NCBI GenBank assembly: GCA_026395435.1
Contig: JAPLYT010000003.1
Span: forward strand, 199,328 to 238,834
DNA from: Candidatus Saccharimonadota bacterium
GTDB lineage: Bacteria; Patescibacteriota; Saccharimonadia; Saccharimonadales; AWTP1-31
Direction of reading: 5' to 3'
DNA: 39,507 bases
This document shows, one piece after another, positions 12,962 through 13,859 of the stretch. The notes beneath the pieces are model-generated. The model worked only from the letters and a program-made list of their open reading frames with translations. It was not told where the DNA came from and did not search any database. Position 1 is the stretch's first letter. Each line of letters begins with the position of its first letter. Made by a program: the position numbers and the translations under genes.

Positions 12962-13039
12962 TGGCGGGCCCGACCGGATTCGAACCGGCGATCTCCTCCG
13001 TGACAGGGAGGCATGTTAGGCCAGCTACACCACGGGCCC
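12962..13039 (-). tRNA. tRNA-Asp(GTC), CCA encoded, G73 discriminator
   Basis: GGGCCCG...CCTCC CTGTCAC GGAGG...GCCGG TTCGAAT CCGGT CGGGCCC G CCA. Confidence 0.96.
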
Positions 13040-13123
13040 GCATCTGTTTCTTTTTCAAGTAACGAAACAAATCATAGCAATTTAAGGGGTAAAAAGCAAG
13101 ATTTGATTTATAATATAGGAGTT

Positions 13124-13594
13124 ATGGGCAAGTTAATAACAAAGAAATGCATTGTTTGTGGAAAGCGTGTATCAAGGTCTAGATATACCTATTGTTCAAA
13201 TCAGTGCCAATCAGATATTACATATCAAAATTATATTAGTGACTGGAAGAAAGGTATTGTTTTGGGCTTACAAGCAAGTCAGGGAATTGTTTCAAGACAT
13301 ATTAAGCGGTATTTAAGAGATAAATATAATAACAAGTGTTGTGTTTGTGGATGGGCTCAGGTTAATATCATTACAAGGCAAGTACCGCTTGTTGCAGATC
13401 ATATTGACGGTAATTGGCAGAATAATCGTGAGGATAACCTTCGCTTAATATGTCCAAATTGCGACTCAATATCCCCTACTTACGCTGCGCTGAACAGAGG
13501 TAAAGGCAGGAAAGGGAGGGTGGTGAGCAATAGAGTCATAAAGTCGAAGATATACGCTAAAGAACATGCCGGAGTAACTCAGTTGGTAGAGTAG
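13124..13594 (+). CDS. HNH endonuclease (homing-type/free-standing); stop codon lies inside the downstream tRNA-Thr
   Basis: Zn ribbon CIVCGKRVSRSRYTYCSNQC; CCVCGW...VADHIDGNWQNNREDNLRLICPNCDS HNH motif; ATG 13124 follows TATAAT/GGAG. Confidence 0.88.
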   Translation: MGKLITKKCIVCGKRVSRSRYTYCSNQCQSDITYQNYISDWKKGIVLGLQASQGIVSRHIKRYLRDKYNNKCCVCGWAQVNIITRQVPLVADHIDGNWQNNREDNLRLICPNCDSISPTYAALNRGKGRKGRVVSNRVIKSKIYAKEHAGVTQLVE

Positions 13595-13643
13595 CTGTTT
13601 CGTAAATAGCAAGTCGTGGGTTCGAATCCCATCTCCGGCTCCA
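13568..13643 (+). tRNA. tRNA-Thr(CGT), CCA encoded, U73 discriminator
   Basis: GCCGGAG...GCTGT TTCGTAA ATAGC...GTGGG TTCGAAT CCCAT CTCCGGC T CCA. Confidence 0.95.
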
Positions 13644-13700: not shown

Positions 13701-13859
13701 GCGGGTATCGTATAGTGGCTAATATGCGACCTTCCCAAGGTCGAGAGGAGAGTGAGTGATGCCAGTGGCATCGCGCAAGGCAATCTTCACTTTAAAACTT
13801 GTTTTCAAAGTAGAAGTTGCGGGGTCGCAGGATGTGAACGATTCTCTCCATCCGCACCA
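13701..13859 (+). tRNA. tRNA-Gly(CCC)-like gene interrupted in the T-loop by an ~84-nt structured insert
   Basis: GCGGGTA / D-arm / CGACC TTCCCAA GGTCG / AGAG / GAGAG [insert] CGATT CTCTC / CATCCGC A CCA; 159 nt versus ~76 expected. Confidence 0.75.

Follow-up and report, generated by a model that had tools for sequence, protein, structure and literature searches.

A structured repeat family of Saccharibacteria associated with tRNA genes, including a copy that splits a tRNA-Gly(CCC) gene

An interrupted tRNA-Gly(CCC) gene

The window analyzed here is a stretch of 39,507 nucleotides from a Candidatus Saccharimonadota draft genome of 17 contigs. Positions 13701 to 13859 read as a tRNA-Gly(CCC) gene in which 86 nt occupy the place of T54-T55 (Table 1). 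An earlier note on this DNA had described a tRNA-Gly(CCC) split in this way, with 86 nt for 2, and its reading was correct: the stems that it listed are present, and the acceptor stem contains a single mismatch, A7xC66, in addition to one G5-U68 pair. The insert, referred to here as E, reads TGAGTGATGCC...GATGTGA followed by one A. At 13013 to 13594, between tRNA-Asp and tRNA-Thr(CGT), is an ORF with a weak HNH_3 match; its placement resembles that of a free-standing homing-type endonuclease adjoining tRNA genes.

Table 1. Features at the interrupted tRNA-Gly(CCC) locus
Feature	Position	Strand	Details	Basis
tRNA-Thr(CGT)	13568-13643	+	Intact	Syntenic neighbor of tRNA-Gly(CCC) in relatives
tRNA-Gly(CCC), nt 1-52	13701-13752	+	GCGGGTATCGTATAGTGGCTAATATGCGACCTTCCCAAGGTCGAGAGGAGAG; acceptor 5′ strand, D-arm, CGACC-TTCCCAA-GGTCG, variable loop, GAGAG	Sequence reading
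E element	13753-13838	+	86 nt including closing base 13838, in place of T54-T55	CM R1, 99.2 bits; family alignments A1 and A5
Hairpin P1	13756-13774	+	13756-13763 with 13767-13774; triloop AGT	Covariation in 7-8 of 8 pairs
Joining segment	13775-13779	+	GCAAG, near-invariant	Family alignments
Hairpin P2	13780-13820	+	13780-13797 with 13802-13820	Covariation in 12 of 17 pairs
Joining segment	13821-13824	+	GGGG, near-invariant	Family alignments
Hairpin P3	13825-13837	+	13825-13829 with 13833-13837	G-U pair conserved
tRNA-Gly(CCC), 3′ part	13839-13859	+	CGATTCTCTCCATCCGCACCA; T-loop remainder CGATT, T-stem CTCTC, acceptor CATCCGC (C66 mismatched with A7), ACCA	Sequence reading

With the insert in place, the gene was not called by ARAGORN or Rfam; ARAGORN called tRNA-Gly(CCC) once the insert was omitted and one T was restored. 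As brought out by the comparison of orthologous loci that the earlier note had suggested, in many relatives the tRNA-Gly(CCC) at this position, behind tRNA-Thr(CGT), is intact. Relative to those relatives, the stems that reach across the insert show compensated pairs (e.g., G49-C65 versus C49-G65), indicating that both halves are one gene. Exact excision of E leaves a T-loop without T55, and TTCGATT is not regained. The failure to restore T54-T55, on which the earlier note had cautioned, follows from the replacement of exactly two bases by members of the E family. When E was left out of 191 E contexts, the flanking halves formed a whole tRNA only in the window copy; two other calls look spurious.

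The inventory of tRNA-Gly genes points the same way as the note's suggestion of a pseudogene. The assembly, in which tRNAs were read from individual sequence stretches, yielded no other tRNA-Gly(CCC); tRNA-Gly(GCC), tRNA-Ile, tRNA-Ala(UGC), and tRNA-Pro(GGG) were also missing, indicating that the assembly is incomplete. The gene for tRNA-Gly(UCC) is intact, and since this tRNA is able to read GGG by wobble, loss of tRNA-Gly(CCC) would be tolerated. Given an excision product without T55, the acceptor mismatch, and the intact tRNA-Gly(UCC), the window gene is most likely a broken, dispensable one that has lost its function.

Structure and distribution of the E family

The secondary structure of E was drawn by eye on a first alignment, ahead of a test on a separate second set. 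In the first set (29 copies), 96.7% of cells were paired, compared with 78.7% after shuffling, and double changes were found at 22 of 30 pairs; covariation was 0.471 versus 0.136, and this support collapsed when the partner was shifted by one base. The second set, composed of 36 further copies and the window copy, gave 97.7% paired cells, double changes at 23/30 pairs, and covariation of 0.504 versus 0.152. None of 500 shuffles reached values as high. Outside P1, the fold also pairs an invariant UG/CA. The G-U pair in P3 is kept in 27/29 sequences of the first set and 34/37 of the second, and the joining segments UGA, GCAAG, and GGG/GGGG are nearly invariant in both family alignments. The window copy itself is predicted to fold as three hairpins (z = -2.4 as RNA and -3.9 as DNA). 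Hence, of the folds offered in the earlier note, the formation of hairpins and the local GATGCC-AGT-GGCATC hairpin stand, whereas the single extended hairpin gives way to the three separate hairpins supported by covariation. Base pairing between GCAAG and CUUG in the loop of P2 was considered by eye and dropped, since it is lost where the loop varies. In a longer variant (loci L048, L050, L016, L101, and L318), GCAAGGCCGGAAGCC... takes the place of P2, and P3 is lengthened by a hairpin rich in A/T that ends in ATATCTGTGA.

Among 60 relatives searched, many genomes contained the insert on its own, apart from the tRNA. A covariance-model search of 392 genomes from the order Saccharimonadales detected E in 114, and the highest copy number, 19, was that of a closed genome of 0.9 Mb (G040); the survey used draft genomes, and these counts are among the matches listed. 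In a phylum-wide draw of 287 genomes, E was confined to Saccharimonadales. A pattern scan of named genomes gave matches mostly labeled Saccharibacteria or Saccharimonadia or without a group name, and one genome labeled Parcubacteria. Rfam contained no family matching E, at the gathering score in the window or at an E value of ≤1 in seven related loci. Pattern searches of IMG/VR and of phage and plasmid records gave no match, and carriage of E by phages or plasmids was rejected on these grounds. Literature searches on inserts in tRNAs, or on repeats, of Saccharibacteria turned up no account of this family. E is a previously undescribed, strongly structured repeat family of Saccharibacteria.

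Target sites and neighboring tRNA genes

E substitutes for exactly two bases, and all 76 distinct sites have G at -1. For 124 of the 194 distinct copies, the distance to an intact tRNA of the same strand is at most 130 nt, compared with ~1.7 expected by chance at an approximate tRNA density. E modules, which are ~150 to 210 bp long and without genes, occur at >20 tRNA species, with the insertion point p in the D-, anticodon-, or T-arm. There are two layouts. In layout U, a module consisting of tRNA 1..p, E, a short 3′ stub, and an antisense stretch precedes a promoter and the intact tRNA, and p is in the D-arm, anticodon loop, or T-loop. In layout D, the intact tRNA and a terminator are followed by antisense, short stub, E, and the tRNA 3′ part, and p is nearly always in the T-loop. 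Many upstream units appear, as read by eye, to have a TATAAT-like promoter of their own.

The partial copies stop exactly at the mature 5′ end (nt 1) or at CCA; identity with the neighboring intact tRNA is ~97% inside the mature tRNA and ~30 to 40% immediately outside. The antisense stretch spans p and holds the two bases missing on the sense side in 158 of 176 cases. Where copy and intact tRNA differ, the antisense agrees with the intact tRNA 82 times and with the copy twice, a count that is biased toward the intact tRNA because the antisense was aligned to it. A conserved helix between the copy arms and the antisense was unsupported: no covariation was seen, in a comparison scored against the intact tRNA and hence biased toward it. 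A few targets are not tRNA genes. The conserved hairpin GAGYCTACAGAGGGGGTGGGCACCGCTGTAGRCTC carries E at L101 (516-598, on contig C6 of the window genome), L038, L121, and L172, with the same partial-copy layout as at tRNA sites, and at L279 E lies antisense to tRNA-Phe.

Five members of the family, including the window copy, were found in the window genome. The other four are a U-type module before tRNA-Gln(CUG), a D-type module of the same tRNA ~12 kb away, a rearranged D-type module at tRNA-Val(UAC), and the hairpin site on C6. The ~12 kb between tRNA-Gln(CUG) and its D-type module (L102/L103; contig C15, ~134.3 to 146.7 kb) is probably an ordinary tRNA-integrated island; a tRNA 3′ end and a terminator precede the module.

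Several observations bear on mobility. In one genus, several species have an empty tRNA-Pro(GGG) site behind a conserved flank; in four others (4/13 sites), the site is occupied by a module, with p = 24 or 37 and always with a new TATAAT-type promoter of its own ahead of the intact tRNA. E copies nested within E occupy sites of the same type (L016 and L050), identical or nearly identical modules are repeated in tandem (L064 and L047), and E copies of a single genus or genome can be nearly identical at tRNAs that differ. Together with the non-tRNA targets and the antisense copy at L279, these findings fit mobile DNA better than an RNA fixed in the host. At L047, two nearly identical D modules enclose ~0.9 kb with one 205-codon ORF, an arrangement like a cassette between two recombination sites.

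Relation to known systems and possible origin

Like miniature inverted-repeat transposable elements (MITEs) and REP/BIME sequences, E is short, gene-less, hairpin-forming, multicopy, and patchy between relatives; it is noncoding and dispersed (86 nt, ≤19 copies per genome, 114/392 genomes). In contrast to MITEs, it has neither terminal inverted repeats nor a target-site duplication: its ends, TGAG... and ...GTGAC, are not inverted repeats, and two target bases are lost, not duplicated. It differs from both groups in its three-hairpin branched core and in being nearly always tied to a tRNA gene with a regenerated tRNA.

In REP/RAYT systems, a Y1 transposase gene is flanked by the REP repeat. 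Y1 genes were found in 12 of 20 E-rich and 2 of 20 E-free genomes (P = 0.002, kinship ignored). In 20 Y1 regions there were one full and two partial E matches; other palindromes flank the Y1 genes examined, and the RAYT genes examined have short palindromes of their own. No Y1 transposase was detected in the closed genome with 19 E copies. The Saccharibacteria RAYT-like Y1 transposases at L301 to L320 are ~205 amino acids long, and many lie between short palindromes whose core sequences are their own. No transposase, recombinase, or other mobility gene was recurrent beside E at 119 loci. Reverse transcriptase was rejected as the mobilizer, since no association was seen (4/20 versus 2/20), and so was the HNH ORF as a partner, its HNH_3 match being weak and not recurrent beside E.

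E modules share with tRNA-integrating elements, including tycheposons and helper-dependent satellites, a site in a tRNA gene, a block of identity from p to the tRNA end, and a regenerated complete tRNA; the window copy lacks the identity block and the regenerated tRNA. Tycheposons have been described as tRNA-bordered, xerD-bearing elements of 4 to 200 kbp (PMC10872708). E modules, by contrast, measure ~150 to 210 bp, have a conserved three-hairpin core, and occur at >20 tRNA species; being gene-less, they carry no site-specific recombinase, which satellites may lack too. The attC sites of integrons are recombination sites whose hairpin structure is conserved more than their sequence. In E, too, structure is conserved over sequence, and the gene-bearing stretch at L047 lies between two nearly identical modules; unlike attC, E has no recognized GTTRRRY/RYYYAAC boxes and no integrase, and its target is a tRNA.

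Introns in tRNA genes, both group I and archaeal, are likewise structured inserts, and archaeal bulge-helix-bulge introns can occupy the T-arm. The completeness of both tRNA-Gly(CCC) halves, their pairing stems with compensated pairs across the insert, and the compact structure of E would fit an intron removed by itself or by an enzyme, leaving a functional tRNA. We consider this very unlikely. Exact excision yields a tRNA without T54-T55, whereas archaeal-type introns restore the exons exactly from a bulge-helix-bulge; the acceptor mismatch persists; Rfam matched no ribozyme or intron; and a group I intron has a conserved catalytic core and ≥200 nt, and the 86-nt insert, given as ~84 nt in the earlier note, is far below that size, as the note said. 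Other E contexts are almost always partial tRNA copies, mostly beside an intact gene, which implies no selection for removal from RNA. Accordingly, the intron was rejected, and what survives of the note's proposal of a new class of tRNA insert is a dispersed, mobile-looking family. About as improbable is a reading confined to the window, as a decayed tRNA pseudogene into which sequence was inserted by chance or as an artifact of assembly. The acceptor mismatch, the wobble-dispensable gene, and the 17-contig draft are compatible with either, but the insert conforms well to a large covarying family, four other members are in the same genome, and the same two-base replacement is seen elsewhere.

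It is also unlikely, to a much lesser degree, that E is a functional RNA domain of host-encoded small RNAs, the window copy included, with tRNA-mimic and antisense arms that act on the neighboring tRNA or gene. Strong covariation, conserved joining segments, the conserved G-U pair, the preference of the antisense for the intact tRNA over the diverged copy (in the biased comparison above), and the promoters of upstream units speak for such a role. The patchy presence among genomes and, in one genus, among sites and at two positions speaks against it, as do nesting, tandem repeats, non-tRNA targets, antisense orientation, and the lack of a conserved set of target tRNAs.

The family, its structure, the target rule, the neighboring architecture, the empty sites, and the nesting are demonstrated by the data above. 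Judged on sequence, E is probably a short, nonautonomous integrative or transposable mini-element specific to Saccharibacteria and targeting tRNA hairpins, with mobility as the cause of its distribution. The entry point, in tRNA genes and in a small number of other sequences that form hairpins, would follow a run of purines with G as its last base, and E would take the place of the next two bases. At essential tRNAs, the outcome would be either tRNA 5′ part, E, stub, antisense, new promoter, and intact tRNA or intact tRNA, new terminator, antisense, stub, E, and tRNA 3′ part. Because insertion of the module regularly leaves an intact tRNA, the essential tRNA would survive. An enzyme acting in trans may recognize the hairpins of E, in the form of RNA or single-stranded DNA, and the module would behave as a gene-less integrative element with the tRNA as its attachment site. 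In the window, E would have entered and inactivated a tRNA-Gly(CCC) gene that is whole apart from the insert and has no regenerated copy.

Simple transposition fails to explain the precise match of tRNA 1..p to the local allele together with the non-local promoters. Since the copies also stop exactly at mature tRNA ends, we propose, tentatively and as a possibility on the doubtful side, that insertion of E copies the local target sequence around itself. Such target-templated integration, directed by RNA or a single strand, would regenerate the entered gene; it would produce a sense tRNA copy to the exact mature end and an antisense stretch that spans the insertion point and is the complement of the intact target.

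For annotation, split copies like the window tRNA-Gly(CCC) are a warning, as they distort tRNA counts in Saccharibacteria genomes. The probable breakage of the window gene matters because elsewhere E appears to enter essential tRNA genes and leave an intact tRNA. The E family would enter tRNA genes of reduced-genome Saccharibacteria, usually with an intact tRNA left, and its modules may be natural examples of a parasite that uses essential genes as landing sites.
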